From Gracilimonas sp. (lineage in GTDB: Bacteria; Bacteroidota; Rhodothermia; Balneolales; Balneolaceae): a DNA stretch of 64,000 nucleotides. The DNA lies in NCBI GenBank assembly GCA_022450045.1, contig JAKURD010000001.1, positions 1 to 64,000 on the forward strand, in the 5' to 3' direction. A model generated the notes under the pieces. The model was not told where the DNA came from. It made no database searches and saw only the letters and a program-made list of their open reading frames with translations. Below, piece by piece: positions 10,458-43,663 of the stretch. Numbering within the stretch: the stretch's first letter is position 1; each line of letters opens with the position of its first letter. The translations under genes were made by a program, and so were the position numbers.

Positions 10458-10490
10458 AGAATACAACAAGAAGGCTTAAAAGAAGCTTAA
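10458..10490 (-). promoter_or_regulatory. Direct-repeat promoter P1 (SHOCT/nhaA operon)
   Basis: Read on the minus strand: TTAAGC, 5 bases, TTAAGC, 10 bases, TATTCT. The half-sites are at 10485-10490 and 10474-10479, the -10-like hexamer at 10458-10463. Same architecture as eight other promoters in this window; both half-sites are perfect. Confidence 0.65.
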
Positions 10491-10662
10491 ATTTGGGAGG
10501 ATAGTTGATAATAGCTGAGTTTTTCGTTTTAATGACCACTTCAGATCGAGAATCATTCATTGGGCAAATGAGATCTGGTAAAAACGAATTATAGCATCAA
10601 ACAAATTTTGCAAAGATTTTTCTAATCGCATCAAGCATAACACAAATATGGACAGATATTAG

Positions 10663-10816
10663 AAAATCAGTCTTTCACTAACCGAAGTAGTTGCCCAGGG
10701 AATAGGCGTTATGATAGGAGCCGTTATTTTTCCACCGATCTGTTTGCGTTGCGGTTATATTGCCGGCCGTACTGATGCTGCTGATCTTTGCCGGAGAAAA
10801 ATGGTTTCTTGCCTGA
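10663..10816 (+). pseudogene. Remnant of an APC-type amino-acid permease
   Basis: From 10663 one frame reads KISLSLTEVVAQGIGVMIGA, very like the first helix of APC-family permeases. After about 25 codons the match is lost. From 10748 another frame reads VAVILPAVLMLLIFAGEKWF and ends at TGA 10814-10816, resembling a last membrane helix. The gene has apparently collapsed to its two ends. The rest of the gap 10491-11321 holds only the hairpin repeat below. Confidence 0.4.
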
Positions 10817-11179
10817 AAAAAATGAACAGCCTTTAGCCTGTAGTTTTTTACGGGTACTCATTCACAGTATGATTAAACAGAAAATGTCAGGGATATTTAC
10901 ATAACTCCTTAATGCAGGATTTTCTCTCACAATTCGTATATTTTTAAAAACATTGGAAATATTTTAATCAATATCGTTTTTTGTATGTTGGGTAATTACC
11001 TTTAGTGCGACAGGCCGAGTAGCTGCACCCACATGGATCGGTAAATCGACCGGAGGATAAGCAAATTAGTGTTTAGAGGATTGATCCACTATAACTGATG
11101 CGGCCCTTTACAAAATCCTCTTCCGTTGCAATTAAAACGCGGAAAATGGACCGTAGAGCCCTCGAACTCAAATAAACTA

Positions 11180-11247
11180 CCCCGCCGCAAGCAGACGGGA
11201 TATCTATTTCTGTTTTTTATTTTATCTTTTCGCCGCAAGCGGCGGGG
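11180..11247. repeat. GC-rich inverted repeat / hairpins
   Basis: CCCCGCCGC at 11180-11188 is the exact inverse of GCGGCGGGG at 11239-11247. The right arm also forms its own hairpin, GCCGC-AA-GCGGC, inside 11232-11244. The surrounding DNA is AT-rich, so these islands stand out. It could be an interspersed repeat or a terminator for a lost gene. Confidence 0.45.
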
Positions 11248-11321
11248 AATTTGACATAGAAAAACAGAATGCAGCATTTTGGTAATAGTGGTCCCAAAGG
11301 CCTTTTCATATTTTCTGAATC

Positions 11322-12977
11322 ATGATATCCAAACATAAAATATCTATAGCGGGATTACTGCTGGGCACCCTGTTTTTTGCCTTTTCTCTGACGCCCAGCC
11401 TGCTGCCGCGTACAAATATAATGCAGGGATTGATTTCCGGCTTTGCATTTACTTTGGGCTATGGATTGGGCGTACTGAGTCGGTGGTTGTGGGCGTGCTT
11501 TGAGCTTCCGATTCCCAATAAGCGCATCCAAAAAATCATAACCTATATCACCGGCAGTATATGCTTGCTCACGGTCATTATCTTTCTCTGGCAGGCTACC
11601 GGCTGGCAAAATTCTTTGCTGACCCTGATGGGACTTGAAAGCTCTGCTATCATGCGGCCCCTGATAATTGGTCTTATAGCAGCAGGTATTTTTTTGATTC
11701 TGCTGTTCCTTGCGCGACTGTTCCGGTGGACATTCCGGTACCTCTCCGATCAGCTTCATCGGATTATACCCCGCCATGTTTCCTATGGTTTCGGCCTGTT
11801 GGCTGCCGTTATCATCTTTGGGCTTGCTTTCAACGGCGTGTTGCCCTCTCTGATCCTGAGAGGAGCGGATGCTTCCTACAAGCAGTGGGATCGCCAAATA
11901 CAGCCCGACCTGGAACAACCTACCGATCCGATGAAAACCGGCAGTCAGGCCTCGCTGCTGAACTGGGATGAAATGGGACACTACGGCCGCGAGTTTGTGG
12001 TTAACGCTCCTGATACAGACGACCTTAAGCAGTTTACCGACCAACCTGTAAAGAAACCTATTCGGGTGTACGCCGGCATGCGGGCGGGCCGCTTTAAAGA
12101 ACGCGCCAAACTTGCCCTTCAGGAGCTAAAGCGAGTTGGTGCTTTTGAGCGGTCCGTAATGGTGCTGAATACGCCCACCGGTTCCGGCTGGGTAGATCCA
12201 GCGGCCATCCAGCCGATTGAATATCTTTATCGCGGCGATATTGCCACCGTCTCAGCGCAGTATTCCCACCTGCCCAGTGCACTTTCGTTAATATTTGAGG
12301 GCGAATATGGCGAAGAGATGGCACAGGCTCTGTTTCAGGAAGTGTACGGCTATTGGAGCGGTCTGCCGGAAGCTGATCGGCCCAAGCTTTACCTGCAGGG
12401 GCTAAGTTTGGGGGCTCTCAACTCCGACCGCTCATTCGACCTGTTCGACATCATCGACGATCCGTTCCACGGGGTGCTCTGGAGCGGACCGCCCTTTCGC
12501 AGCGAAACCTGGCGGCGCATAACCGCGCAGCGAAAGCCCGGCTCTCCGGCCTGGCTGCCTCGTTTTCGGGACGATGCCGTCGTGCGCTTTGCCAATCAAA
12601 ACGGGGGGTTGGAACAGGGGGAATCTCCATGGGGTGATTTTCGTATTGCCTATCTTCAATATGCAAGCGATCCGATCGTATTTTTTGATCCCCGAATTTT
12701 TTGGCACGAACCGGAATGGATGCGCCAACCACGAGGATTTGATGTTTCACAAAACCTGAATTGGTATCCGATGGTTACCATGGTGCAGCTGGCCGCGGAT
12801 ATGGTGGCAGGTACCGGTGCTCCTGTCGGCTATGGCCATGAATATGCGGCCACAGATTATCTGCAGTCATGGATTCAACTCGCTGAACCGCCGGGATGGA
12901 GCCGGGAAGAGCTCGAGCGGCTGCAGGCCTTCTTTGCCGAAAGGGATAAAAGAAAAACGCAAAGCAAAGAATTATAA
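11322..12977 (+). CDS. Membrane alpha/beta-hydrolase family 9 protein
   Basis: 551 residues. The first ~180 residues form four or five helices (SLTPSLLPRTNIMQGLISGF is the family's opening), followed by a cytosolic or periplasmic hydrolase domain. The nucleophile elbow is LYLQGLSLGALNS, with downstream SGPPFRSETW and GHEYAATDYLQSW; the last His may complete the triad. This fits Abhydrolase_9 with its N-terminal membrane domain, for which a lipase or esterase role is suspected but not proven. It is a single gene convergent with cfa, and carries no TTAAGC-repeat promoter. Confidence 0.85.
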   Translation: MISKHKISIAGLLLGTLFFAFSLTPSLLPRTNIMQGLISGFAFTLGYGLGVLSRWLWACFELPIPNKRIQKIITYITGSICLLTVIIFLWQATGWQNSLLTLMGLESSAIMRPLIIGLIAAGIFLILLFLARLFRWTFRYLSDQLHRIIPRHVSYGFGLLAAVIIFGLAFNGVLPSLILRGADASYKQWDRQIQPDLEQPTDPMKTGSQASLLNWDEMGHYGREFVVNAPDTDDLKQFTDQPVKKPIRVYAGMRAGRFKERAKLALQELKRVGAFERSVMVLNTPTGSGWVDPAAIQPIEYLYRGDIATVSAQYSHLPSALSLIFEGEYGEEMAQALFQEVYGYWSGLPEADRPKLYLQGLSLGALNSDRSFDLFDIIDDPFHGVLWSGPPFRSETWRRITAQRKPGSPAWLPRFRDDAVVRFANQNGGLEQGESPWGDFRIAYLQYASDPIVFFDPRIFWHEPEWMRQPRGFDVSQNLNWYPMVTMVQLAADMVAGTGAPVGYGHEYAATDYLQSWIQLAEPPGWSREELERLQAFFAERDKRKTQSKEL

Positions 12978-13032: not shown

Positions 13033-14166
13033 TTATTCATCTTCCGTCCGGTAACGGGGCGCAACAAACCCGCCGGGGATTCCGCGTTTAGAAAAAACAA
13101 CCTGCCAGAGCTGGTTTTTACGTACCCTGAAACTGCCGGCACAACTGAGTAGATAATACTTCCACATGCGGTAAAACTCTTCAGAGTAATTTGGCTTTAG
13201 CTCATCCCAGTGGTTGTCAAAATTTTGATACCAGGCCATCAGGGTTTTATCATAATAGGCACCGAAGTTTTGCCAGTCTTCCATTACAAAGAGCCCCTCA
13301 GCGGCCAGTGACAGCTGACGTATGGAGGGGAGTTGAGAATTCGGGAATATATATTTTTCAATCCATGGATCAGTAGTACGTACCGATTCATTGCCTCCGA
13401 TCGTATGGAGTAAAAAAATGCCATCATCTTTCAAACACCGATGGACAGCCTGCATATAGGTGCGGTAATTTTTGCTGCCAACGTGTTCGATCATACCCAG
13501 TGAGACAATACGGTCAAAGGGTTCATCAATCTCCCGATAATCCTGAAACCGTATTTCCACTGGCAGGCCCTTGCATCGCTCTCTGGCCAGATCCACCTGC
13601 TCTTTGGAAACCGTGATGCCTACCACTTCTGCCCCGTAGGTTTCGGCCGCATATTTGGCAAAGCTGCCCCACCCGCAGCCGATATCCAGCACACGCTGGC
13701 CGGGCTGTAAATCTATTTTTTTGCATACCAGATCCAGCTTGGCTTCCTGGGCTTCATCCAGCGTTTCAGCTCCTTGCCAGTAGCCGCAGGTATAAACCAT
13801 GCGTTTGTCCAGCATTAACTTGTACAGGTCATTTCCAACATCGTAATGTTGTTCGCCTATTTCATAAGCTTTTTCTTTGCGTTGCTGATTGGTCAGCATT
13901 GCTTTAACATGTTCAAACACCAATGTTGGAGTAAGAGCATGTTTTTTCTCAAGCTCTGCCCGAAGCACCCGGGTAAAAAATTGATCGAGTGCTTCGGCTT
14001 CCCACCAACCATCCATATACGCTTCACCCAGCCCTAATGATCCCTTACTTACTACCCGATCAAAAAGACGGTCGTCAAGCACTTGAATATCCCAAGGCCG
14101 GGTCCCGTTAATTTGGATATCCGCCGACTCCAGGTCGGCTTCTATCTTTTTAATAATATTTTTCAT
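13033..14166 (-). CDS. cfa: Cyclopropane-fatty-acyl-phospholipid synthase
   Basis: 377 residues, normal for CFA synthases. SAM-binding motif VLDIGCGWGSFAKYAAETYG, post-motif GITVSKEQ, and family markers QHYDVGNDLYKLML and IVSLGMIEHVG are present, plus the C-terminal YYLLSCAGSFRVRKNQLWQ. The enzyme adds a methylene group across double bonds of membrane lipids, typically on entry to stationary phase or under acid stress. The promoter at 14267-14299 is one of the TTAAGC-repeat set, linking it to that regulon. Transcribed alone. Confidence 0.95.
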   Translation of the reverse strand: MKNIIKKIEADLESADIQINGTRPWDIQVLDDRLFDRVVSKGSLGLGEAYMDGWWEAEALDQFFTRVLRAELEKKHALTPTLVFEHVKAMLTNQQRKEKAYEIGEQHYDVGNDLYKLMLDKRMVYTCGYWQGAETLDEAQEAKLDLVCKKIDLQPGQRVLDIGCGWGSFAKYAAETYGAEVVGITVSKEQVDLARERCKGLPVEIRFQDYREIDEPFDRIVSLGMIEHVGSKNYRTYMQAVHRCLKDDGIFLLHTIGGNESVRTTDPWIEKYIFPNSQLPSIRQLSLAAEGLFVMEDWQNFGAYYDKTLMAWYQNFDNHWDELKPNYSEEFYRMWKYYLLSCAGSFRVRKNQLWQVVFSKRGIPGGFVAPRYRTEDE

Positions 14167-14266: not shown

Positions 14267-14299
14267 AGTATACGAGTGGTAAGCTTAAACAAAGCTTAA
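14267..14299 (-). promoter_or_regulatory. Direct-repeat promoter P2 (cfa)
   Basis: Minus strand: TTAAGC (14294-14299), 5 bases, TTAAGC (14283-14288), 10 bases, TATACT (14267-14272), about 100 bases before the cfa ATG. Identical half-sites to P1. The rest of the 14167-14394 gap shows no gene. Confidence 0.65.
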
Positions 14300-14394: not shown

Positions 14395-16470
14395 CTATTC
14401 AATGGTACGCTTCCGTATCAACACGACCACCGACCGTGCCTTTACGGTGTAAGTGATCCCGCCTATCGGTTTCTCCCCTCCAGGCTCGGCAATGTCGTTC
14501 GGACTTGGCAGGCTGGTGTCAACCACCCGCTTCCAGTCATCAGCAGTTCCCTCCTGAATGGTAAAGTCCAGATCGTTCCACCAGGCATTAATCATCACGT
14601 ACAAATCATCATCTTCCTCGGAAGCACCATCCAAATAGAAAGCAATGCTGTGAGAATCAGGCAAGGTATCAGCTGGTCCGTCCGTACCATACCAATGAAC
14701 ATCGCTACGCCAAAATCGGCTTCGACCCAGCGAAGGGTGCTGCTTACGAAATGCAATCATCCGTTTAAAAAAACGAAAGGTCTCTTCATTTTCTTCTTTC
14801 AGGGTCCAGTCCAGCCAATTGATTTCGTTATTTTGATTATATGGATTGTTGTTGCCGTACTGAGTATTTAAAAACTCATCGCCCGCCCGGAACATAGGCG
14901 TACCGTTCGAGAGAAACAGCAGACTGCAGAAATTTTTAGCCTGCCGCCTGCGCAGCTCCATCACCTCTCCGGGTACATGCTCATCTCCCTCCCAACCGCA
15001 GTTCCAGCTAAAATTATGATCCATTCCGTCGCGGTTGTCATGGCCGTTGGCTTCGTTATGCTTGTAATTGTAGGAAACCAGGTCGTACAGGCTAAACCCG
15101 TCGTGCGCATTGATAAAGTTGACGCTTTGCCAGGCATGGCAGGCATATTCCGGCGAATCGGGAAACAAATCATCACTTCCGTACATGCGGGTCATTACTG
15201 AGCCCACCATTCCAGAGTCTCCTTTTACGAACCGGCGCATGTCATCCCTGTATTTTCCATTCCACTGCATCCAGGTAATGCCCGGGAAGCGGACTCCCAG
15301 CTGGTAGCTACTAACATCCCACGCTTCGGCAATAAGTCGTACTTTTGTAAAAGCAGGATCTCCAGATATTTCAGAAATGAGAGGGGGGTCGTCCAGGTTC
15401 AGAGATCCGTCGCGATTGCGGGTAAAAATGGAGGCCAAATCAAACCGAAAACCGTCCACCTGCATCTCCGTAACCCAGAAGCGCAGGCTGTCCATTATCA
15501 TTTTCCGGACGGCCGGGTCGGCGCAGTTAAGTACATTGCCTGTGCCTGCATCGTTGCGGTAGTGGCGGCGATCGTCTTCCAGCAGGTAGTAAGTTTCGTT
15601 GTCGATACCCCGGTAGCTGTAGGTGGGCCCGTTTTCATCACCTTCCGCCGTATGATTATAAACTACATCCATAATTACTTCCATATCCGCCTCGTGGAGG
15701 GCTTTCACCATAGCGCGGAACTCGTTCATCAGGGCGTCAGGCTGCCGGCAGCTGCCATAACTGCGGTTAGGAGAGAAAAAGTTGAGCGGCATATATCCCC
15801 AGTAATCTTTCTCTTGGGGATCATTTTGGTGTACCGGCATCAGCTCCACTACGGTTACCCCCAGTTCTTTCAGGTAGGGAATTTTTTCAACCACCCCGCG
15901 AAACGTTCCCCGTTTGGCCGGAGAAATTCCAGAACTGGTATGCCGGGTAAAGCCGTGCACGTGTAGTTCATAAATGATGGTATCGTGGGTATGCTTCGGC
16001 TTTACCGTTTCTTCCCAATCGAAGGCAGGGGCGTGGGTATGTATAACCCCTAGGGGTGCTTTACCTGCATTCGATCCCTTTTTTTGCGCTGCTTTACGGT
16101 CAAAATCCGGCGGAAAATAGACTGCCTCTGCATACGGATCAAGCAGTATTTTATCGGGGTCGAATCGCTTGCCGGAGGCAGGTTCGTCGGGCCCCTCAAT
16201 GCGGTAGGCGTAACAGGCTGCCTTCTGCATGATGGTATGCGGAACCCGGCAGTGCCAGATATGGGCGGTTTTGTTGATGGCCAGATCGAAGGAATATTTG
16301 TAACAGGGCGTTTTGGTGTCATCTTTGGCGTACAGCAGCAGCGTCACCCCGGTGGCCGTCTCGGAATAGAGGGCAAAATTGCAGGCATGATCACCGTCGA
16401 TACTGGTAACGCCAAGCGGGTAAGGGGTCCCTTCCCGCTGCTCCCATTTGTTAATATTTTTTTCTGCCAT
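14395..16470 (-). CDS. glgX: Glycogen debranching enzyme GlgX
   Basis: 691 residues. An N-terminal carbohydrate-binding domain (GDHACNFALYSE...) is followed by a GH13 barrel. Catalytic segments are visible: VVYNHTAEGDENGP, DGFRFDLAS with the nucleophile Asp, LIAEAWD with the acid/base Glu and FINAHDGFSLYDL. GRSFWRSD-like substrate loops and GDEFLNTQYGNNNPYNQ match bacterial isoamylase-type debranching enzymes. It hydrolyses alpha-1,6 branches of glycogen. It follows glgC by 42 bases on the same strand, so synthesis and breakdown genes are read together. Confidence 0.93.
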   Translation of the reverse strand: MAEKNINKWEQREGTPYPLGVTSIDGDHACNFALYSETATGVTLLLYAKDDTKTPCYKYSFDLAINKTAHIWHCRVPHTIMQKAACYAYRIEGPDEPASGKRFDPDKILLDPYAEAVYFPPDFDRKAAQKKGSNAGKAPLGVIHTHAPAFDWEETVKPKHTHDTIIYELHVHGFTRHTSSGISPAKRGTFRGVVEKIPYLKELGVTVVELMPVHQNDPQEKDYWGYMPLNFFSPNRSYGSCRQPDALMNEFRAMVKALHEADMEVIMDVVYNHTAEGDENGPTYSYRGIDNETYYLLEDDRRHYRNDAGTGNVLNCADPAVRKMIMDSLRFWVTEMQVDGFRFDLASIFTRNRDGSLNLDDPPLISEISGDPAFTKVRLIAEAWDVSSYQLGVRFPGITWMQWNGKYRDDMRRFVKGDSGMVGSVMTRMYGSDDLFPDSPEYACHAWQSVNFINAHDGFSLYDLVSYNYKHNEANGHDNRDGMDHNFSWNCGWEGDEHVPGEVMELRRRQAKNFCSLLFLSNGTPMFRAGDEFLNTQYGNNNPYNQNNEINWLDWTLKEENEETFRFFKRMIAFRKQHPSLGRSRFWRSDVHWYGTDGPADTLPDSHSIAFYLDGASEEDDDLYVMINAWWNDLDFTIQEGTADDWKRVVDTSLPSPNDIAEPGGEKPIGGITYTVKARSVVVLIRKRTIE

Positions 16471-17822: not shown

Positions 17823-17855
17823 AACATACCGCCCTGTGCCTTAAATAAACCTTAA
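17823..17855 (-). promoter_or_regulatory. Direct-repeat promoter P3 (glgC-glgX)
   Basis: Minus strand: TTAAGG (17850-17855), 5 bases, TTAAGG (17839-17844), 10 bases, TATGTT (17823-17828), 41 bases before the glgC start. Both half-sites end in G instead of C. Confidence 0.6.
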
Positions 17856-19158: not shown

Positions 19159-19191
19159 AGTATACAGCTGTAATGCTTAAGCCAAGCTTAA
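19159..19191 (-). promoter_or_regulatory. Direct-repeat promoter P4 (MFS exporter)
   Basis: Minus strand: TTAAGC (19186-19191), 5 bases (TTGGC), TTAAGC (19175-19180), 10 bases, TATACT (19159-19164). The spacer TTGGC is the same as in P5, which faces the other way about 110 bases further on. Confidence 0.65.
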
Positions 19192-19302: not shown

Positions 19303-19334
19303 TTAAGCTTGGCTTAAGGTAGCAACCTTATCTT
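19303..19334 (+). promoter_or_regulatory. Direct-repeat promoter P5 (YVTN protein)
   Basis: Plus strand: TTAAGC (19303-19308), 5 bases, TTAAGG (19314-19319), 9 bases, TATCTT (19329-19334), 111 bases before the gene start. Confidence 0.6.
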
Positions 19335-19445
19335 GTTATTAGAAACTATCGGAAAAACTTGGCCGCGCGTTTAGTTTACGTATGAGTCAATTTTTAATAA
19401 CAAATGACATAAGAATGAGCCTGTTTAGGCTTGGAGGAGAATGTT

Positions 19446-20667: not shown

Positions 20668-21247
20668 ATGAGTACTAACCACAACGCATACTACACATCA
20701 AAAACATGGTTTGTGCCTGTTGCAAATATACCGTAAAAAAATATTTGAAGGCTTGGGTTGCAAAGTATTTGCTGTTGAATTGAGGTAGGTTGTTATCAGA
20801 TCGCACAATATTCCAGCTCAAGAGCAAGTAAGAGAACAGTTGTTAAAAAATGGGTTTGAACTGCTGGAATCCGAAAATGCCCGCATCATCGAGCGGGTAA
20901 AAGTGCTGCTGATCAGTTTACTCAACTGGAACAGGCCCGTCGGATGGCCGGTCGCTTTGACTATGTACATCGAGGTGCGTACGCAAAAAAAGTTTAAAGA
21001 GTTGGATAGACTTTTCTTTTCAATTTGTGGATGTTCTATTCGGGAATATTTCAATCTGCTGCGGTTTGAACGCGCCAAGGAGCTGATCTCTTACCATGAA
21101 AAGCCCATTCATCATATTGCCGAACAGCTGGGATACGGCAGTGCTGAAACATTGTCACTCGAATTCAGACGACGACCTAAGCTGAATCTGCCGGAGTTTG
21201 TAAAATCAGGACATAAATACAGACGACCAGTAGATGCTCCGGTTTAA
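20668..21247 (+). pseudogene. AraC-type regulator with N-terminal metal-binding domain, broken
   Basis: Pieces in different frames add up to a known layout. 20699-20739 reads KNMVCACCKYTVKKYL, a heavy-metal-associated-like start; a one-base shift leads to EGLGCKVFAVEL; a TAG at 20786-20788 interrupts; then VVIRSHNIPAQEQVREQLLK and LLESENARIIERVK continue to an AraC helix-turn-helix: CSIREYFNLLRFERAKELIS, HIAEQLGYGSAETLSLEFRR. The stop overlaps promoter P6. The family consists of small sensor-regulators of Bacteroidota that sit in metal-resistance loci. With one indel and one stop, it is unlikely to work. Confidence 0.65.
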
Positions 21248-21276
21248 GCTTGTTTTAAGGATGCCATGAGTAAATT
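21244..21276 (+). promoter_or_regulatory. Direct-repeat promoter P6 (RND/HPP envelope operon)
   Basis: Plus strand: TTAAGC (21244-21249), 5 bases, TTAAGG (21255-21260), 10 bases, TAAATT (21271-21276). It is about 175 bases before the MMPL gene, so the mRNA leader would be long; no structure was recognised in it. Confidence 0.55.
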
Positions 21277-30285: not shown

Positions 30286-30501
30286 TCTATTAGGTGATTT
30301 GCATCTGGTTTTCTACCGGCCTGCTTTGAAACCTTAAGAAAGAATCAGTACATTCTTCCGCCTTCCTCAATATAACCTTAAGACGAAGATATTAACATGC
30401 AAAGAAGGCTTTCTAAACGGTACAGAATAGCTTATTAAAAAGCTGAACTATTGGTTCAGGAAAATATCGAACAGTTTATATTTTTTGAAAATATATCTGA
30501 T

Positions 30502-34154: not shown

Positions 34155-34205
34155 GTAATTATTTCGTTTAGTTTAAATGTATGTTTATGGTGAAAACAGC
34201 TTTGT

Positions 34206-35234
34206 CTAAATAAACCGTTGGGTAACACCCAGCGAGCGGTTTGTTTTTTCAATGGATTTTTGAGGATCGGACTCACTGCCGGTCAGTGCCCGAATCGCAT
34301 CGATGGTTTCGGGAATGACGATAGCCTGATTATCCACCAAATAGGCGTAGTAAAGCTCGTTTCCTTCCACTTTAAGCATGTCTTCCCAGATGGCCACTTC
34401 GTACATATCGCCGTGGGGACGACCCAAATCCAGCATCAGTTCCTTGACCGCATTGTTAGCTGATAATTCATCATCCATGCGTATTAATGCAGTTCGGGTA
34501 GAAGTGCCAAAGGCTTCCAGCACTTCTTCTTTGGATGCTTCCCTGGCCAATTGCACAGTCCAGTAATGCAGATGGGACAGTGTTTCCGGTACTTTAACGG
34601 CTGCTGTTACCACATCCAGCTCGTGATCCACGCTCTGAGCATCGGGACCCTGGTGACTGGGAATCTCTGGCTCGGGGACCAGCGTATTCATGATGCCGTT
34701 TTTATGGCTCTCCCACGGATCGGTAGCACGGCGCAGCAGCGTGCCGCGTGCTTTTTTGAGCAGCTCTACTCGTTTTAATGCGCTTAGAGTGCGCACAATG
34801 GAGGTAGTATTACAGGAAACCACGCGGGTGCTCTCACGATTCAAGGCGGAAGCGTAATTGTTTTCCGCGCTGAACGAATGACCAGTTGTTTCATGTTTTT
34901 CACCACCCTGTACGATATATTTCACCCCTGCTTGCCGATATTTTTCTGCATTTTGAGCACCGAACTTTTTAGGAGCACAATCTACCACCACATCGGCGAT
35001 AGACAGCAGATCATTGAGGTTGCCCGCTACGGATATTTGGGCATCGTTCATAGCTTGTCGTCCTTCCTCCGTATTGGCAAATACATTATATTTCCGGGCA
35101 GCTACTTTTATCCGCCAATCGGCAGCTACATCACCGATGCCGACCAGTTTCATATCCTCTTGCAGAGCTACTGCTTCAGCTACTCGTTTACCGATGACGC
35201 CGTAACCATTAACGGCAACTTTAATTTTTTTCAT
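34206..35234 (-). CDS. Type II (archaeal-type) glyceraldehyde-3-phosphate dehydrogenase
   Basis: 342 residues. N-terminal Rossmann start IKVAVNGYGVIGKRVAEAV, catalytic cysteine in VVSCNTTSIVRTLSAL, and LHYWTVQLARE and TALIRMDDELSAN match the archaeal GAPDH clade (EC 1.2.1.59) that uses NAD(P), not the bacterial GapA family. This enzyme is usual in archaea and rare in bacteria, suggesting lateral transfer. It follows the SHOCT gene by 18 bases and precedes the ICMT-like gene, so it is read from promoter P7. It would work in glycolysis or, more often for this type, gluconeogenesis. Confidence 0.85.
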   Translation of the reverse strand: MKKIKVAVNGYGVIGKRVAEAVALQEDMKLVGIGDVAADWRIKVAARKYNVFANTEEGRQAMNDAQISVAGNLNDLLSIADVVVDCAPKKFGAQNAEKYRQAGVKYIVQGGEKHETTGHSFSAENNYASALNRESTRVVSCNTTSIVRTLSALKRVELLKKARGTLLRRATDPWESHKNGIMNTLVPEPEIPSHQGPDAQSVDHELDVVTAAVKVPETLSHLHYWTVQLAREASKEEVLEAFGTSTRTALIRMDDELSANNAVKELMLDLGRPHGDMYEVAIWEDMLKVEGNELYYAYLVDNQAIVIPETIDAIRALTGSESDPQKSIEKTNRSLGVTQRFI

Positions 35235-35252
35235 TGTAAGATTCCATTCTTG

Positions 35253-35495: not shown

Positions 35496-35545
35496 TTAAT
35501 GTATGCTGTATGATCACCAGCTAAATACAGCACCATACTGTTGGA

Positions 35546-35577
35546 AAGATACAAACGGTAGCTTAAAACAAGCTTAA
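35546..35577 (-). promoter_or_regulatory. Direct-repeat promoter P7 (SHOCT/GAPDH operon)
   Basis: Minus strand: TTAAGC (35572-35577), 5 bases, TTAAGC (35561-35566), 9 bases, TATCTT (35546-35551). Spacer TTGTT, as in P6. Confidence 0.65.
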
Positions 35578-35620
35578 ATTTAGAATACTGTATAGGGTTA
35601 TTTTCATCATTTGCTATTTT

Positions 35621-35935
35621 AACATGAGTTCGAGATAAGAACTAAGTTAAAAGGACAAAAATGGATGCTTGTGGGCACCCAAGCTTGTTCTTATCCTACT
35701 CCAACATCCGGGGCCTGTGTCATTGATCAGATGGGGTTTCCATCAGATCGAATCCGTGGCTGTTTGCACTGCCCCCGGTCTGATGGCTCCAGGTCCATCT
35801 GACCGATTGTCTGATTAGGGCACCTGCGTCTTTTCCTTAACCTAATCCCACATTTTACGCCTACCCCATCAATCAGCCCATACATCAGACGGATCGTGCA
35901 GCTATTCTAACATTCTTTATCTCGAATTCACGTTA
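35621..35935. repeat. MITE-like element 1 with terminal inverted repeats
   Basis: About 315 bases bounded by AACATGAGTTCGAGATAAG on the left (35621) and its near-inverse TTTATCTCGAATTCACGTTA on the right (to 35935). No gene inside. Bases 35626-35667 match, with one difference, the inverse of 56419-56460 in element 2. The right end includes the stop codon of pfkA. Bases 35681-35722 resemble 55909-55949, where a similar sequence interrupts hipA. Confidence 0.7.
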
Positions 35936-36907: not shown

Positions 36908-36961
36908 AATTTATAGTTCTTTCTCTATACTTCAGTACGTTAGCTTCTACGTATTTTGTTG

Positions 36962-39028
36962 CTACTTACTTTTTCGCATTTTTCCTTTAAGCAACTGCGC
37001 ATTGAGGGCAACGATGATAGTACTTAGGCTCATAAATACAGCCGCTAAAGCTGGCCCTAGTACAAAGCCACTGGAATACAGCACACCAGCTGCCAGCGGA
37101 ATGGCAATAATATTATAGCCTGTAGCCCAAATTAAGTTTTGAATCATTTTTTTGAACGTAGCCTTACCAAACAAGATTAAATTGGCAATATCTTTTGGGT
37201 TGCTGTTTACCAAGATAATATCGGCTGTTTCGGCAGCAATATCAGAACCTGATCCAACGGCAACGCCAACATCTGCCATTGCCAATGCAGGGGCATCATT
37301 TACACCATCGCCTGTCATGGCAACAAACTCACCTTTATCCTGTAGGTCTTTTACAATTTCTACCTTTTGATGAGGCAATACTTCTGCAAAATAGCCATCC
37401 AAACCAAGTTTATCGCTAACGGCTTTTGCTGTTTTTTCATTGTCACCAGTAGCCATGAATACTTTGATATTGTTCTTTTTAAAAGTCTTGATGGCATCAG
37501 CCGATTCGGGTCTTATCTCATCGGCAAGAGCAATATATCCAGCTAATTCGCCATCGATCAAAACGAATACTACAGTTTCTGCGGCATCACTATAGGCGTC
37601 TTCAGGGATTGTGATTTTTTCATCCCTTAAATATCCGGGGCTCACCACTTTTACCTGTTTACCCTCTACATCGGCTTCGACTCCTTTTCCAGTAATTGAA
37701 TTGAAATTTTCCGGCTTTGGTATGGCGGCATTATCTTCTTTTACTTTCTTAATGATACCTACGGCAATAGGGTGTTCTGAGCTTTGTTCCAAAGCGCTTG
37801 CAAGTCTTAAAACTTCATCAGAGGTGTACTTTTTAATTACAGATTCAATCCGCGTAACACCAAAATCTCCTTTAGTCAACGTCCCTGTTTTATCAAATAG
37901 TAAGGCAGATATTTTACGTGATTCTTCAAAAGCAGTCCTGTTACGGATAAGCAGTCCATTCTGTGCAGAAACAGCCGTGGAAATCGCCACTACTAGAGGA
38001 ATGGCTAAACCCAAAGCATGCGGACAGGCAATGATCATGACCGTAACCATTCGCTCCAGCGCAAATACAAAGGGATATCCTAGCAAAAGCCATACAGCTA
38101 GGGTACTAAAACCTATAAACAGGGCAATATATGTAAGCCATTTTGCAGCTTTATCTGATAGGTTTTGCATTTTTGATTTGGTGCGCTGTGCTTCGTCAAC
38201 CATCTTGATTACCTTGTTGAGGTAGCTGTCTTTACCCGTGTGCACCACTTTAACTTTCAGGGTACTGTTGCCGTTTAAGGAACCACCTATAACCTTGTCG
38301 TCAAATTCTTTTTTTATAGGTTTGGATTCTCCAGTAAGCATGGATTCATTAAGATAACTGGTGCCTTCAATTATTATACCATCCGCAGGAATTTTTTCAC
38401 CGGGCTTAATCAAGATAATATCATCTTTTATAAGATCATCCAGTTTAACGTCTTCAATTGTGTTTCCTACCACTTTATGCGCTTCGGAGGGCAGCATACT
38501 TACCAACAGTTGTAAAGCCTTGGATGCACCAAGTACAGATTTCATTTCGAGCCAATGCCCCAGCAGCATAATGTCTATCAGGGTAACCAACTCCCAGAAA
38601 AAATCTTCTCCCCTTAATCCAAATACCGTGGCAGAACTATAAAAATAGGCTACACTTATGGCCATGGATATAAGAGTCATCATTCCGGGTCCCTTGACTT
38701 TCATTTCGCCCCAGAAACCTTTTAAAAATGGCCATGCTCCCCAGAAATAAACAAAGGACGAGAGCACAAAAAGGATGTAGGAATTACCGGGGAGCAGATA
38801 GTCATACCCAAAGAATTCCTGGATCATCGGCGAAAAGAAAAGGATAGGAATACTTATGATTGTTGAAATCCAGAACCGTTTTCTAAAATCGGCTACCATC
38901 ATTTTATGATGGTCGTGTCCTGCCATTCCCATCGGTGCATTTGCATCATGACCGGAATGACCTCCGTTTCCATGATCCATTTTTGAATGGTCTGTTTTTT
39001 TATGTTGTTGATGCTCGTGATTTTCCAT
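36962..39028 (-). CDS. copB: Copper-translocating P-type ATPase, CopB type
   Basis: 688 residues. His/Met-rich N-terminus (KKTDHSKMDHGNGGHSGHD...) instead of an HMA domain, TGES in the actuator domain, CPH in the ion-binding helix (MIIACPHALGLAIPL), DKTGTLT phosphorylation site, SEHPIAVGI, and TGDGVNDAPALAMADVGVAV. CPH places it in the P1B-3 (CopB) group, which exports copper or silver. It is 12 bases behind the PPK2 gene and belongs to the operon read from promoter P9. Confidence 0.93.
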   Translation of the reverse strand: MENHEHQQHKKTDHSKMDHGNGGHSGHDANAPMGMAGHDHHKMMVADFRKRFWISTIISIPILFFSPMIQEFFGYDYLLPGNSYILFVLSSFVYFWGAWPFLKGFWGEMKVKGPGMMTLISMAISVAYFYSSATVFGLRGEDFFWELVTLIDIMLLGHWLEMKSVLGASKALQLLVSMLPSEAHKVVGNTIEDVKLDDLIKDDIILIKPGEKIPADGIIIEGTSYLNESMLTGESKPIKKEFDDKVIGGSLNGNSTLKVKVVHTGKDSYLNKVIKMVDEAQRTKSKMQNLSDKAAKWLTYIALFIGFSTLAVWLLLGYPFVFALERMVTVMIIACPHALGLAIPLVVAISTAVSAQNGLLIRNRTAFEESRKISALLFDKTGTLTKGDFGVTRIESVIKKYTSDEVLRLASALEQSSEHPIAVGIIKKVKEDNAAIPKPENFNSITGKGVEADVEGKQVKVVSPGYLRDEKITIPEDAYSDAAETVVFVLIDGELAGYIALADEIRPESADAIKTFKKNNIKVFMATGDNEKTAKAVSDKLGLDGYFAEVLPHQKVEIVKDLQDKGEFVAMTGDGVNDAPALAMADVGVAVGSGSDIAAETADIILVNSNPKDIANLILFGKATFKKMIQNLIWATGYNIIAIPLAAGVLYSSGFVLGPALAAVFMSLSTIIVALNAQLLKGKMRKSK

Positions 39029-39040
39029 AATGTTTGGCTA

Positions 39041-39772
39041 TTAGGTAGTGGGGTATTTTAAATTGTGTTTTTCAAGATGTTCGGTAAGTATATTGGCAAC
39101 ATAATAGTTGCGAAACCAACGTTTATCAGCCGGGACAATATGCCAGGAAGGTTGGTCACAATTATTTATAAGCATGGTATAAGCATCTCGGTAAGCGTCC
39201 CATTGTCTGGCTGATTGTTCATCTTCTATACTATATTTCCAGCGTTTATGTGGTTTGGAGAGCCGTTCGCTTATCCGTTTTTTTTGTTCTTCCTGTGAAA
39301 TATGGAGAAAGAATTTTAATACATGAATGTTGTTCTGTACCAAGTGCTGCTCCAGGCTTTTAAGAAGCCGGCACCGGTGATGGATAACTTCTTCCGGCAG
39401 AGAGCGGTTGACCAACGGGAACAGGATATCTTCGTAATAAGAACGGTTAAATACTTCGATCATTCTTTTGGCAGGGAGGTGGGGATACACGCGCCACAAA
39501 AAATCGTGGGACAGCTCTTCTTCCGTTGGTGCTTTAAAGGATTTTACCTGTATTCCCTGTGGGTTCATACTGCTAAAGGCATGACGGATGGTGCCATCTT
39601 TGCCGGAGGTGTCCATTCCCTGCAGGATAATGAGCAATCCATAACGCCCATCGGCATAAAATTTGTTCTGAAGTTCAAAAAGTTCCTTTCGCAACTTCGA
39701 TAGACTTTTTTTTGCCTCACCTTTTGAAATGTTAGATGGCGGTTTAGTTGAAATTGTATTTAAATCTATCAC
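39041..39772 (-). CDS. ppk2: Polyphosphate kinase 2 family protein
   Basis: 243 residues, a single PPK2 domain. Walker-type loop ILQGMDTSGKDGTIRHAFSS, lid region, and WRVYPHLPAKRMIEVFNRSYYED match polyphosphate:nucleotide phosphotransferases, which use polyphosphate to phosphorylate ADP, GDP or AMP. Which class (I-III) cannot be told by eye. It sits between the site-2 protease and CopB genes. Polyphosphate metabolism next to copper export fits polyphosphate's role in metal tolerance. Confidence 0.88.
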   Translation of the reverse strand: MIDLNTISTKPPSNISKGEAKKSLSKLRKELFELQNKFYADGRYGLLIILQGMDTSGKDGTIRHAFSSMNPQGIQVKSFKAPTEEELSHDFLWRVYPHLPAKRMIEVFNRSYYEDILFPLVNRSLPEEVIHHRCRLLKSLEQHLVQNNIHVLKFFLHISQEEQKKRISERLSKPHKRWKYSIEDEQSARQWDAYRDAYTMLINNCDQPSWHIVPADKRWFRNYYVANILTEHLEKHNLKYPTT

Positions 39773-39801
39773 TTTTATAAAATTATAAATTGTGTTTGAA
39801 G

Positions 39802-40893
39802 TTAATGTCTGTGCCGGGGAGCGGTACCAGCCTCGTTTTGTTCAAGTAGTTTAATCAAGTCCTTGTAATATATGACTCCCACAAGACGATCTTCATCCAG
39901 CACGGGAAAAATATGTTGCCCGGATTGCTGAACCTGCGGTAATAACTCATAAATAAGTGTGTCCAGAGTCAGAGTTTGTATCTGTTCTTTCACAAGATTT
40001 ATTACGGGATTATCAAAATGACCTTTTTGCATCTCTTCGATAATTAGCTTGTAGGATGCGATCCCCATAAAGCGCTCTTCATCAGTTACAACCAGCTCCG
40101 GTTCCCTACTTTCCATAAAAGCGGCTGCCGCCTTTGATACGGAAGCTGTTTGGGAAAGCGCCAAATAATCGGTTTTCATCAGGTCTTGCACCTTTATCTC
40201 TCGCAAAGATTCAGTGGTCACAACCTGTTTGGCTTCAGCCCCTGCTCCCAAAAATACAAAGATCCCTATAAACAGTAGCCAGGGATTGTAAAACAGACCA
40301 AAAAAGACAAATCCAATTGCTAAAAGCTGTCCTACGGAGGCAGCAATTCGGGTAGCTTTTCCTCTTTTCATTTTAAAGGCCAGAAGAGCCCTGAGCACGC
40401 GTCCGCCGTCCATTGGAAAAGCCGGTATCAGGTTAAACAGCACCAGAATAATATTGATCACCAGTAGATCTGCCAGAAAATTTGCGCCGGTAATATGATG
40501 CCCCAGCTCCATATCCGTTTGACCAATCAACAGCATGATAAGGTATAAGCCAGCTGCAATAGCTACGTTAACCGCCGGGCCTGCAATCGCTACCACCAGT
40601 TCCTCTTTGGGATCTTCGGGCATACTTTCCAGCCGGGCCACGCCGCCGATTGGTAACAGGTTAATATCCCGTGTTCCGATACCATAGCGCCGGGCAGCGA
40701 GAGCATGACCAAACTCATGCAGGGTCACGCAAGAAAAAAGGGCTACAAGAAAAAGGAGTCCCATTGCTATCTCAAAAAGCCCGTGCCCCTGCCGCAGGTG
40801 CATCCAGGAAAACCAGATGATTAGCAGAATGAAGGTCCAGTGAATAAAGACTTTGATACCCGCCGGTTTCCCAATATAAAGTGACCATTTCAT
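39802..40893 (-). CDS. Site-2 protease family (M50B) membrane protease with CBS domains
   Basis: 363 residues from ATG 40891-40893 (MKWSLYIGKPAGIKVFIHWT), preferred over the ATG 51 bases upstream because it gives the family's usual N-terminus. HEFGH zinc motif (VTLHEFGHALAARRYG), second active-site motif LIPAFPMDGGRVLRA with Asp, about six helices, then two C-terminal CBS repeats (IKVQDLMKTDYLALSQTASV and QIQTLTLDTLIYELL). It cleaves membrane-embedded substrates such as anti-sigma factors; CBS domains bind adenine nucleotides. 59 bases separate it from the 45-aa gene. Confidence 0.9.
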   Translation of the reverse strand: MKWSLYIGKPAGIKVFIHWTFILLIIWFSWMHLRQGHGLFEIAMGLLFLVALFSCVTLHEFGHALAARRYGIGTRDINLLPIGGVARLESMPEDPKEELVVAIAGPAVNVAIAAGLYLIMLLIGQTDMELGHHITGANFLADLLVINIILVLFNLIPAFPMDGGRVLRALLAFKMKRGKATRIAASVGQLLAIGFVFFGLFYNPWLLFIGIFVFLGAGAEAKQVVTTESLREIKVQDLMKTDYLALSQTASVSKAAAAFMESREPELVVTDEERFMGIASYKLIIEEMQKGHFDNPVINLVKEQIQTLTLDTLIYELLPQVQQSGQHIFPVLDEDRLVGVIYYKDLIKLLEQNEAGTAPRHRH

Positions 40894-40952
40894 GGCAGTG
40901 TTCTTTCTATAAGTGATTATATATATAAAAAAATAATTTGTCATATTTGTAT

Positions 40953-41090
40953 TTAATACATGTCAATGTTACGAGTATCTGGATGATTTTTATTACTTAC
41001 CTTAACTGGAACTTTCCGTAGCTCAGTCTTTCCAAGTAGTTGATCAAGTTTATCAGTAAGATCACGGAGTAGGTTTTTCAAGGTTTCCAT
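40953..41090 (-). CDS. Small conserved-looking protein (45 aa), unknown function
   Basis: ATG at 41088-41090, stop at 40953-40955. The product begins METLKNLLRDLTDKLDQLLG and continues KTELRKVPVKVSNKNHPD; the first half is amphipathic and charged. No family recognised. Its main support is context: a TTAAGC/TTCAGC direct-repeat promoter lies 46-78 bases upstream, and it is followed on the same strand by the site-2 protease, PPK2 and CopB. Could be a short leader gene or a spurious frame. Confidence 0.4.
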   Translation of the reverse strand: METLKNLLRDLTDKLDQLLGKTELRKVPVKVSNKNHPDTRNIDMY

Positions 41091-41135
41091 ATCAATTATT
41101 GTTGATTGAATTAATGATTGTCAAGTTCTTTATAG

Positions 41136-41168
41136 AACATACGCAGGCCTTGCTGAAATGAAGCTTAA
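41136..41168 (-). promoter_or_regulatory. Direct-repeat promoter P9 (45-aa/protease/PPK2/CopB operon)
   Basis: Minus strand: TTAAGC (41163-41168), 5 bases, TTCAGC (41152-41157, one mismatch), 10 bases, TATGTT (41136-41141). Weakest of the nine but with the same spacing. Confidence 0.5.
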
Positions 41169-41216
41169 AACGGTGGGCGTTCTTGTATTTTTTTCGCATC
41201 AGGTTATCTCTCCTTG

Positions 41217-41916
41217 TCAGGCATGTTTCAGCTTATGCCATGTAAGGTATTCGTATAAACTTGATCAGTACATGCCAAAAGTAAAGGTAAAAAGATACTC
41301 TTCCAGCGGGATCCTGACGATCACCAAACCGGACAATTTTTCAAGCGTCCAGACGTGTTCTACATAGTCAGGAAAGACCATGTTCAAACTGGTAAAATAG
41401 ATGAAATACAATCCTGTAAAGAGCAAGCCGCTGATCCAGATTTTGCGGATCAGATCGGGCCGGCAGATCATAGCAGATATCCCACCAATGAACATGGCAA
41501 TTGAACCGTAATAAATATGATTGAGCGGTGTAAATAAAGCAAGGATGAGAAAAACAACGGGTGGGGCGAACAGGCTCAGCAAATGAAATCGGTGGCGTTT
41601 ATGTCCGCGATCTTCAATGGGTATGCCGATGGTTACCACCGGTGTAATCATTTTGTACAGCACCGCTCCAATTCCACCGATCGCAAACGAAAAAATAAGA
41701 CTTTCGATATCAAATCCTGTTTTTTTCTGCAAGATTGAACAGGGAGGGGGGCGTCCAGTATTCGGGCACAAAGAGCGGTTCGGTAAGTCCCATAGGCATA
41801 GTCCACAGGCTTACTTTTAACATTTCTGCTCTGATGGGCTTTTTATAAACGAAGATGACACTACACAACAGTAGGATGAGGAGAGACCATATAAACCAAA
41901 CGTATTGCATGTCCAT
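41217..41916 (-). pseudogene. Lycopene cyclase domain protein, disrupted twice
   Basis: Begins MDMQYVWFIWSLLILLLCSV and has VPEYWTPPSLFNLA, typical of lycopene cyclase-domain proteins, then breaks in a run of seven A's near 41730: the next codons in the other frame continue KTGFDIESLIFSFAIGGIG to PLEEYLFTFTFGMY. A TGA at 41265-41267 then stands where Trp is expected; beyond it the frame reads SSLYEYLTWHKLKHA to a real stop at 41217-41219. The domain has about six helices and cyclises lycopene. With an indel and a nonsense change the gene is dead. Downstream promoter P9 overlaps its 3' flank. Confidence 0.75.
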
Positions 41917-41994
41917 ATTTGTACCAATTTTCAGGAACAGGAGATACAGTTAACCTAAGTTCAATTAAAAAGTAGGTTCTGTCATAGGCAAGAT

Positions 41995-42088
41995 GGTCAT
42001 TTCGCAGCGAATGCCCGAAATCTAATTGTTTTTTACGTATCTATGATTGAATTACCGGCAATACTAAGATCCCTGCCTTCGCAGGGAT
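41995..42088. repeat. REP-like repeat copy 1
   Basis: Starts GGTCATTTCGCAGCGAATGC and continues CCGAAATCT (41995-42023); a hairpin ATCCCTGC-CTTC-GCAGGGAT at 42069-42088 follows. A second copy with the same start and a variant hairpin lies at 56316-56409. Such GTCATTTCG repeats are, to my knowledge, common in Bacteroidota intergenic DNA. The rest of 41917-42398 shows no gene. Confidence 0.6.
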
Positions 42089-42398
42089 GACTTTTTAGGC
42101 ATTTTTCAAGCTATCAATAATCGAGCTCAGGTAGTTATTACTCTTCCTCTTTACTATGCAACCCAGGACAAGGTTGTAAAATGTCAAAAAATACATTTAA
42201 TGGCGGGAAGCTCATGCGAATTATTTGTTCTACATCCATTCACTCCATGCAATAAGGCTGTTTAAAAAAAATGGGCTCCCTCTCTTCCTAATATGACCAT
42301 CAGAATGATGCTACCGAAATCAAGAACAGCACTGATAGTTTCAACGGCTATTCCCAATTTTTAATGCATAGCTTTTCCATAATTTTTGCTCCAATATG

Positions 42399-42587
42399 TT
42401 AATGTTGGCGAACACCCTGACCTGGTCTTCTCCGATGATGACCGATCATTAGAATATGGCAAGCAAGCATAGCTACAATTGCTATTGCAGTTGTTATCCC
42501 CTCATTTAAACCAAGCGCCGGAGCGATGAAGAGAAACAAAAATACGGTGCCGCACCCAATTATCATCCACAAAATGTGCTTATTCAT
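42399..42587 (-). CDS. Small two-helix membrane protein, DUF2933-like
   Basis: 62 residues: MNKHILWMIIGCGTVFLFLF, a second helix (ITTAIAIVAMLACHILMIGH) and a basic HHRRRPG tail. DUF2933 and similar peptides are common in copper/heavy-metal clusters. No enzymatic motif. It follows the Met-rich gene by 109 bases on the same strand. Confidence 0.6.
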   Translation of the reverse strand: MNKHILWMIIGCGTVFLFLFIAPALGLNEGITTAIAIVAMLACHILMIGHHRRRPGQGVRQH

Positions 42588-42696
42588 ACTCTTAATGAGT
42601 CTTATAGTTTAAGAGCTATCGTTATATGTAAAAGTACCTCACCAAATAAATCTTAAGATACCCGGATGCGGATGGCTCATGATCTATTGAGTTTAA

Positions 42697-43173
42697 TCAA
42701 TTATGATGCTCTTGATGTTCGCTGCCATTTTTATTTGGCTTTTTCATGCCCTGATGGTCCATCTTGTTTCCCTGCATCATCTGCATGCACATCATATTCA
42801 TATTCATTTTCATCATGGATGAATCACCCATCATGTTCATCATTTTGGAGTGATCCATATTACCGTCCATCATAGACTGCATCATTTCCATGTGCTTTTG
42901 CATGCGCTCTTTCATTTCAGGATTATTCATCATTTTTTGCATATTGCCCATCATCATGGTGCTGTCCATTTTCATGGTACCCATCATTTTTTGCATTATC
43001 TGCTTGCGCATTTCGGGGTTTTGTGCCATATGATCCATCATCATCGAGCGCATGGTAGAATCCTGCATCATTTCCTGCATCTGTTGTTTTTTCTGATTCA
43101 TATCCTGCTGTTGAGCATAGCCCATTCCCGCAGAAAAAAGAAGTATGGTAAGCGTAAGAATAAGTGTTTTCAT
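42697..43173 (-). CDS. Exported Met-rich putative copper-binding protein
   Basis: 158 residues with a signal peptide (MKTLILTLTILLFSAGMGYA) and an extremely Met-rich mature part: I count 46 Met in the whole protein, in runs such as MQEMM, SMMMDHM, TMMMGNMQKMM, plus a His tail. Periplasmic Met-clusters bind Cu(I) or Ag(I), as in CopA/PcoA-type and CusF-like proteins. There is no known catalytic domain. It is followed by a P-II gene upstream and DUF2933 downstream, all minus strand, driven by promoter P8. Copper buffering is inferred from composition and the nearby copB. Confidence 0.75.
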   Translation of the reverse strand: MKTLILTLTILLFSAGMGYAQQQDMNQKKQQMQEMMQDSTMRSMMMDHMAQNPEMRKQIMQKMMGTMKMDSTMMMGNMQKMMNNPEMKERMQKHMEMMQSMMDGNMDHSKMMNMMGDSSMMKMNMNMMCMQMMQGNKMDHQGMKKPNKNGSEHQEHHN

Positions 43174-43220
43174 AAGGGTGGTGGTTTATAGTTTATGATT
43201 TTAGTTTTTAATATTCTTTT

Positions 43221-43561
43221 TCAAAGAAGGACTTCCGGTCCTCTTGTACCATCTTTTATGCGTACAGCTTCTTCAATTGGAGATATAAAAATTATTCCGT
43301 CTCCTTCTGATCCAGTAGAAGCCTTCTGTTGAATAATATCCGCAATTTTTGAGGCATCTTCGTCCTGAATGGCAATTTCGATTTTACCACTTCTGCATGC
43401 ATCGCTGGAAAGTCTAACGAACCATGTTCTTTCGTGGGATCGACATATCTATCGGTACCCTCACCTCTATATACCGTCATACCAGCTACTCCATGATGCC
43501 GTAATTCTTTACAAATTTCTTCAAGTAAAATGGGCCTGATTAAAATTTTTAGCAGCTTCAT
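43221..43561 (-). pseudogene. P-II family regulator-like protein, frameshifted
   Basis: ATG 43559-43561 (MKLLKILIRPILLEEICKEL) gives the P-II start; HGVAGMTVYRGEGTD is the T-loop region, shorter and different from GlnB. At 43381-43385 one A is missing, turning GTAAAAATC into GTAAAATC; the other frame continues IEIAIQDEDASKIADII, then GDGIIFISPIEEAVRIKDGT and ends RGPEVLL at 43221-43223. Restored length is about 113 residues. P-II relatives occur beside copper RND pumps in this group; a metal-linked role is inferred. A single-base error is possible. Confidence 0.65.
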
Positions 43562-43631
43562 GGCATTGAGCTTTGTGTTAATAACGGGATGAAACACCAA
43601 TAACAAAATCTTTGATCTTTCATCTGATTCC

Positions 43632-43663
43632 ATAATAAGAATCCTTGCTTAAATTAAGCTTAA
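43632..43663 (-). promoter_or_regulatory. Direct-repeat promoter P8 (P-II/Met-rich operon)
   Basis: Minus strand: TTAAGC (43658-43663), 5 bases, TTAAGC (43647-43652), 9 bases, TATTAT (43632-43637), 71 bases before the P-II start. Confidence 0.65.

Follow-up and report, generated by a model that had tools for sequence, protein, structure and literature searches.

Results

A repeated promoter element in the window

The DNA analysed here, called the window throughout, comprises the first 64,000 nucleotides of contig JAKURD010000001.1 (assembly GCA_022450045.1) of a Gracilimonas species from the family Balneolaceae. It carries nine copies of the direct repeat TTAAGS-N5-TTAAGS, each placed before a -10-like hexamer, and these boxes are likely the sites of a predicted copper two-component system that would also switch metabolic genes. 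On the minus strand, box 1 (TTAAGCTTCTTTTAAGC, 10474..10490, with TATTCT at 10458-10463) points toward a small open reading frame (ORF, 10120-10401) followed by NhaA (8555-9907), box 2 (TTAAGCTTTGTTTAAGC, 14283..14299, TATACT at 14267-14272) toward cfa (13033-14166), box 3 (TTAAGGTTTATTTAAGG, 17839..17855, TATGTT at 17823-17828) toward glgC (16513-17781) and glgX (14395-16470), and box 4 (TTAAGCTTGGCTTAAGC, 19175..19191, TATACT at 19159-19164) toward an MFS transporter (17905-19128). Two boxes lie on the plus strand, box 5 (TTAAGCTTGGCTTAAGG, 19303..19319, TATCTT at 19329-19334) before a beta-propeller protein (19431-20594) and box 6 (TTAAGCTTGTTTTAAGG, 21244..21260, TAAATT at 21271-21276) before an MMPL/RND transporter (21450-24353) and its followers. 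Again on the minus strand, box 7 (TTAAGCTTGTTTTAAGC, 35561..35577, TATCTT at 35546-35551) faces a small ORF (35253-35495), a type II GAPDH (34206-35234) and a methyltransferase-like gene (33489-34154). Box 8, which has one mismatch (TTAAGCTTCATTTCAGC, 41152..41168, minus strand, TATGTT at 41136-41141), faces genes for an M50-CBS protein (39802-40944), a PPK2 (39041-39772), a copper P-type ATPase (36962-39028) and a PFK (35933-36907). Finally, box 9 (TTAAGCTTAATTTAAGC, 43647..43663, minus strand, TATTAT at 43632-43637) is directed toward a frame-broken P-II-like gene (ORF 43292-43633) and a Met-rich protein (42697-43173).

All nine boxes were recovered at the positions and on the strands given in a preliminary description of this DNA, including the single TTCAGC half-site at 41152 and the unusual TAAATT hexamer of the box at 21244, and in 9/9 cases a TANNNT hexamer follows 9-10 bases downstream with the whole arrangement oriented to the next gene. 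The TTCAGC variant was seen again at sites in the related genomes G027, G024, G045, G011, G065, G025 and G017. A chance recurrence, which had been called implausible, is indeed hard to reconcile with the one-mismatch scan of the window, since it gave 10 matches compared to a mean of 1.78 and a maximum of 4 in 100 dinucleotide shuffles, none of which reached 10. The tenth match (30365..30381, minus strand, one mismatch) is judged a chance look-alike, and its omission from the preliminary description was correct, because it has no hexamer and the next same-strand ORF start in the heuristic gene list is 11 kb away. Neither Rfam families nor tRNA genes were found when the window was scanned for them (0 and 0 matches).

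Distribution of the box in the genome and among relatives

The search was extended, as had been suggested, to the full genome and to relatives. The whole 3.5-Mb genome contains 15 exact matches to TTAAGS-N5-TTAAGS, eight of them inside the window, compared to 2 for the reversed control pattern. Allowing one mismatch with the spacer TT fixed gave 26 matches compared to 9 in the reversed control, and 18 of these 26 lie on contigs C1, C2 and C56, all with a hexamer except the look-alike at 30365. The remaining eight (two each on C7 and C9, one each on C16, C30, C47 and C67) were rejected as sites because none has a hexamer. The 17 box-hexamer promoters (9 in the window, 6 on C2 and 2 on C56) are thus confined to three contigs, which indicates a compact regulon of which the window is one part.

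Among 92 genomes of Balneolaceae, the exact pattern TTAAGSTTNNNTTAAGS is present in 26. The 19 box genomes used for site statistics hold 121 exact boxes, of which 117 fall in the fetched stretches (those left out are three on G016:C38 and one at G065:C6:36359); together with 32 one-mismatch sites this gave a set of 149 sites in 33 stretches with 842,964 bases. The reversed pattern has 0 exact matches there. Because the stretches were chosen for exact boxes, the box letters themselves are no evidence, and it is the counts of hexamers, ORF positions and an extra T that inform. A TANNNT hexamer at 9 or 10 bases follows 142/149 sites, compared to 2-28/149 at other non-overlapping offset pairs. The pattern is not equally frequent inside genes, as 146/149 sites lie outside ORFs, though mechanically called ORFs of at least 80 aa cover 87% of that DNA. 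A same-strand ORF start is found downstream within 150 bp for 102/149 sites and within 400 bp for 136/149. Moreover, a T outside the search pattern directly precedes both halves in 134/149 sites from 19 genomes, hence the half-site is mostly a 7-mer, TTTAAGS-N4-TTTAAGS; in the window, the boxes at 19175 and 19303 carry C instead of T before the second half. These site statistics, together with the 17 hexamer-bearing promoters of the genome, support the claim of a real regulon.

The hexamer reads TATATT, TATCTT or TATGTT in 73/142 cases. The sigma-A promoter consensus of Bacteroidota is given as TAnnTTTG at -7 (PMC9723704), and this form occurs in only 1/142 hexamers. If the hexamer is the -10 box, the repeat spans about -39 to -22, which fits the proposed OmpR/PhoB/PmrA-type activator and would be where an activator substituting for a -35 element sits. 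The same placement could mean that the box is itself the -35 region of a sigma factor, since it occupies that position, with a -10-like hexamer behind it; its two near-identical halves one turn apart, and its close tie across genomes to the presence of one response regulator described below, make this reading extremely improbable.

A candidate regulator and its kinase

The preliminary description placed the regulator outside the window, and a candidate was found there, on contig C2. It is an OmpR-family response regulator (C2:61715-62449) with a receiver and an OmpR-type DNA-binding domain (PF00072 with 91.1 bits and PF00486 with 75.5 bits, both above cut-off), directly followed by the gene of a 475-residue kinase (C2:62446-63873). 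Judged from its distribution, this pair very probably represents the box regulator and its kinase partner. Counting the regulator as present at 71% identity or more, a copy 71-100% identical was found in 18/92 genomes. At least two exact boxes occur in 17/18 genomes with the regulator compared to 1/74 without it (G025), a difference whose Fisher value (p = 2e-16) overstates independence because 12/18 regulator-bearing genomes belong to one genus (Fodinibius and Aliifodinibius, classed within Balneolaceae). At least one exact box is present in 18/18 versus 8/74 genomes, and the seven single-box genomes among the 74, checked apart, have the hexamer in 0/7 cases. In the genus of the query genome the regulator is present in 3/10 genomes, which have 13, 7 and 7 boxes, while six of the other seven have no box and G025 has four; in the genus g11 it is present in 2/28. 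Within these two genera, two or more boxes track the presence of the regulator, save in G025. The regulator of G045 (g11) shares 91% identity with the query copy and the regulator of G065, also g11, 74%, which suggests that the regulator was transferred between genera.

The neighbourhoods of the regulator gene were inspected on public genome contigs for the best 80 of 144 relatives. At 14/14 loci with 57-91% identical regulators a box with at most one mismatch was found near the regulator gene; this largely looks at the same genomes again, because 12/14 loci are contigs already included in the 92 genomes, the exceptions being two Balneola loci. Of these boxes, 13 lie within 70 bp of the start of the tblastn match and are aimed at the divergent gene, and the fourteenth is 245 bp away and has no hexamer. 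The 66 remoter loci among these best 80 gave one box match, likewise without hexamer. Upstream of a 50% identical Rhodothermus regulator, no repeat with an 11-bp period (6 of 7 letters) was found within 400 bp.

It might also be considered that another protein encoded on C2, i.e. an ECF sigma factor, a GntR, an NtrC-type or an AraC-like regulator, binds the box and that the OmpR-type protein is a mere neighbour. Genes of this kind do sit among the C2 boxes (the GntR, ECF and NtrC-type assignments come from sequence reading, not from a family scan). However, when the C2 regulators were sought in the stretches of the 19 genomes (45% identity, 60% length), the OmpR-type regulator with its kinase was found in 18/19, whereas GntR was found in 4, ECF sigma in 2, NtrC-type in 1 and AraC in 1. 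Moreover, GntR relatives occur in 70/92 genomes (E <= 1e-50) and NtrC-type relatives in 2/92 (1e-120, with at most 18 candidates per genome scored), and the form described for PmrA is a direct repeat whose half-sites are separated by 5 bp (PMC3973317). All four candidates were therefore rejected as box regulator, and we regard this alternative as highly unlikely.

The kinase carries the motif H-x3-H-H-x4-H (H41, H45, H46 and H51) directly behind its first hydrophobic stretch in 21/21 sequences (18 genomes), F40 ahead of this His cluster in 19/21 and H165 shortly ahead of the second stretch in 20/21, the hydrophobic or membrane stretches being assigned by eye. In CopS the sensor domain (residues 34-151) has invariant metal-site residues His41 and His140 together with Phe42, which are shared with CusS according to PMC7763554. 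The kinase of this Gracilimonas likewise has His residues in the part before the kinase core, a likeness in position only.

Copper-type genes behind the boxes

A downstream gene could be assigned to 143/149 sites, with up to 6 genes considered per site. The three largest box-linked families across the 19 genomes are of copper type, namely Met-rich small proteins with 23-33% Met (24 in 18 genomes), multicopper oxidases (20 in 18) and copper P-type ATPases (18 in 14); therefore the signal is most likely copper. They are followed by P-II-like proteins (15 in 13 genomes), an uncharacterised family (C2:51449; 15 in 15), type II GAPDH (11 in 11) and one unnamed family (11 in 10). In the window, the copper group is represented by the CopB-like copper-translocating P-type ATPase at 36962..39028 (minus strand; TIGR01511 with 611.9 bits, cut-off 397) and by the secreted-type Met-rich small protein at 42697..43173 (minus strand), which has 29% Met, belongs to a family boxed in 18/19 genomes and is likely copper-binding. 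The two TIGR01511 scores of the genome, 623.7 and 611.9 bits, are both above cut-off. On C2 and C56 the boxes precede a multicopper oxidase (TIGR01480 with 804.6 bits, above cut-off), a P-type ATPase of CopA type that has HMA and YHS domains and a cupredoxin behind it, and a small protein followed by OEP, CusB-like, CusA-like (TIGR00914 with 1232.1 bits, above cut-off), P-II and DUF411 genes. The P-II family protein beside this CusA-type pump (L026 7591-7968) matches PF00543 with 60.5 bits. Also found behind these boxes are a Met-rich small protein followed by a second OEP, CusB-like and RND set, an NADH dehydrogenase operon, a DUF2231 protein, a small protein that matches no Pfam family, and a CxxC protein whose HTH_18 match stays below threshold.

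In regulator-bearing genomes, a box was found at 21/23 copies of the multicopper oxidase, 20 from the scripted count plus one clipped locus in G010 (box C25:56). Where the regulator is missing, the oxidase is boxed in 0/3 cases, in genomes that have only a 57% identical regulator in 0/2, and a 38% identical oxidase is boxed in 0/1. The type II GAPDH is boxed at 11/11 copies in box-bearing genomes, with the second half of the split G025 gene omitted, compared to 0/2 in genomes without the regulator. The same downstream genes thus lack the box where the regulator is absent, which points to this regulator.

The preliminary description had proposed an undescribed regulon in which salt, metal, envelope and storage responses are joined. 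The regulon is supported, the joint theme is not, since the top three families across the genomes are of copper type. A variant of this proposal would keep the regulator and the box and replace copper by a general envelope, salt or multi-metal stress signal. NhaA, cfa and the MMPL transporter among the window genes would suit it, as would scores of the regulator and the kinase below the copper/heavy-metal cut-offs; the leading copper families speak against it, and so does the finding that NhaA occurs in box clusters of just 4 other genomes and cfa in 2 within the fetched stretches. Hence, we consider general stress an unlikely signal.

Metabolic and other genes behind the boxes

The type II, archaeal-type GAPDH of the window (34206..35234, minus strand; NF003251 with 451.3 bits, cut-off 185) and the PPK2 family polyphosphate kinase (39041..39772, minus strand; TIGR03709 with 296.4 bits, cut-off 247.2) belong to the metabolic group. 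In the 19-genome stretches, type II GAPDH is boxed in 10/10 other genomes that have it, and it occurs in 13/92 genomes, i.e. in 10/18 with the regulator, in G025 and in two others. The GAPDH and PFK of the window look like extra copies, because C40 carries a better match to Gp_dh_C, which was taken to be the canonical GAPDH, and two further PFK copies exist in the genome. Elsewhere the box linkage varies. M50-CBS is boxed within 500 bp in 7/10 genomes and the P-II-like gene in 4/4 where they were found (the latter in the relative search, not the family count), and the cfa ortholog, glgC and the MMPL/RND relative are each boxed in 2/2 genomes in which they were found. An MFS relative was found in 5 genomes, with a box within 500 bp upstream in 1/5. 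On these counts, GAPDH and its neighbours are strongly linked to boxes, and cfa, glgC and the RND gene weakly.

The small ORFs at 10120-10401 and 35253-35495, which directly follow boxes 1 and 7, share a hydrophobic start and similar C-terminal tails. The former has relatives in 6 other genomes, 5/6 with a box within 500 bp upstream, and the latter type occurs in 17 other genomes, 14/17 within 500 bp of a box. Compared by tblastn with intact relatives, the P-II-like gene behind box 9 (43224-43588) lies in two frames. The mechanical start of its ORF at 43633 overlaps the hexamer of box 9; the real start is probably at about 43561, because several relatives begin at the methionine of MKLLK. The ORFs 26711-27373 and 27205-28008 also overlap and belong to the same family, possibly as one frame-broken gene (26711-28008).

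Mobile elements were seen in the window and on C2. An IS200-like (Y1) transposase (44388-44705) lies just right of box 9, a phage-type integrase (C2:25122-26294; L026 5122-6294) next to the first C2 box gene, and C2:4435-5214 encodes an IS110-type transposase; the C2 cluster is possibly a mobile island. A plasmid search with 33489-43700 retrieved 2 records, which matched a copper P-type ATPase and covered 3% of the query.

Discussion

The boxes, their hexamers, the spacing and orientation of both, their conservation and the tie of box and regulator across genomes can be read directly from the sequences. A copper two-component system would join these features as follows. The kinase would sense periplasmic copper via its invariant histidines and phosphorylate the response regulator, a dimer of which may then bind the TTTAAGS-N4-TTTAAGS direct repeat and bring RNA polymerase to the TATNTT-like hexamer that follows after 9-10 bases. 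Genes for exporting and oxidising copper and for its Met-rich binders would thereby be switched on, and a metabolic side group comprising type II GAPDH, PFK, PPK2, glgC/glgX, cfa and NhaA would be co-activated. Among the metabolic genes, type II GAPDH would most plausibly act as substitute for a housekeeping GAPDH that copper has poisoned. A copper-induced bypass by a second-type GAPDH seems a sensible reading, because copper inhibits GapA in Staphylococcus aureus (PMC6350627) and the GAPDH copy of the window looks like an extra one. It might even be that the copper system has recruited a copper-proof second set of energy and carbon pathways, in which, under copper, the canonical GAPDH is swapped for the archaeal-type type II enzyme and a separate PFK, a polyphosphate kinase and glycogen enzymes are placed under the same box as the pumps, with the package moving between Balneolaceae genera; we offer this wider idea only tentatively and regard it as rather doubtful.

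Besides the prevalence of one genus and the overlap of the regulator loci mentioned above, several observations weigh against a copper system of this kind. The regulator reaches 196.5 bits against TIGR01387 (CusR/CopR/CzcR; cut-off 279.2) and the kinase 253.2 bits against TIGR01386 (CusS/CopS; cut-off 292.55, residues 11-470 of 475 aligned), both below cut-off, and silver or another soft metal could be the signal. The RND protein of the second boxed pump set on C2 scores 274.8 bits, below the CusA/CzcA cut-off of 701.45. G025 has its 4 exact boxes without a close regulator; they lie on two contigs (L100 and L101) whose ends split the GAPDH gene, and an assembly gap possibly accounts for the absent regulator. 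G018 has just one exact box despite the regulator, and G005 and G007, counted among the 74, have a 57% identical one. In the query genome no box adjoins the regulator gene, perhaps because an NtrC-type pair sits between the regulator and the multicopper oxidase. Among the 23 oxidase copies of regulator-bearing genomes, two are unboxed and one boxed copy has no hexamer, 8/18 of these genomes have no type II GAPDH, the box tie of cfa, glgC and the RND gene was seen in just 2 other genomes, and for the beta-propeller gene behind box 5 no box-linked relative was found among the genomes searched.

The comparison with known systems helps to place the predicted pair. CtrA of alphaproteobacteria recognises TTAA-N7-TTAA, and the spacing of the two TTAA is identical in the box described here, but lineage and genes differ; membership was rejected, as NF045991 gave 150.2 of 350 bits. 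PmrA (BasR) targets lipid A genes, whereas the targets here are copper-type genes. The PmrA site of Salmonella is a YTTAAK direct repeat (PMC10927774) with half-sites 5 bp apart (PMC3973317), which the present box fits: in YTTAAK-N5-YTTAAK terms, the T before both halves is found in 134/149 sites, the terminal G being part of our search pattern. It does not fit the stricter CTTAAG/XTTAAT form given in PMC3973317, and membership was rejected with 162.4 of 330 bits for NF007928. HP1043 (HsrA) from Helicobacter pylori is an activator with TTTAAG-5bp-TTTAAG overlapping the promoter (PMC8345958), a consensus that equals the box core here. It is an orphan regulator whose receiver is degenerate (PMC8345958); membership was rejected because the receiver here is above the Pfam cut-off and a kinase gene is adjacent.

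With regard to gene content, CusRS/CopRS of E. coli, Pseudomonas and Corynebacterium glutamicum, as well as LciRS of Legionella, likewise combine an OmpR-type regulator and a kinase near copper export and multicopper oxidase genes, while the set found here adds central-carbon, polyphosphate and glycogen genes. The DNA sites differ, since LciR is reported to use the inverted repeat ATTACAAnnTTGTAAT (PMC6989116) instead of a direct repeat, and the CopR box of C. glutamicum, TGAAGATTTnnTGAAGATTT (PMC3140484), is unlike the box here. In the literature found, no copper two-component box of this bacterial group was tied to a TTTAAG repeat; the box string in PMC9302797 was set aside, because it occurs in primers in the part of the paper concerned. 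We therefore predict a system that operates in the manner of CusRS/CopRS through a PmrA/HP1043-type box, without being a member of any of these families. What sets it apart from PmrA and HP1043 are the copper genes and the metabolic cargo of type II GAPDH, PFK, PPK2 and glgCX.

For the Balneolaceae, for which we found no copper regulon in the literature, the analysis provides a candidate regulator, kinase, box and gene list. A 2024 study on a marine flavobacterium reports CusS/CopS-like kinases unlike known periplasmic metal-binding domains (PMC11213822). If binding proves true, no fewer than three quite different regulators of the OmpR family would share the TTTAAG direct repeat. Furthermore, the predicted system would link copper to glycolysis in these bacteria, as the second GAPDH is boxed at every copy in box-bearing genomes (11/11) and at none elsewhere (0/2).

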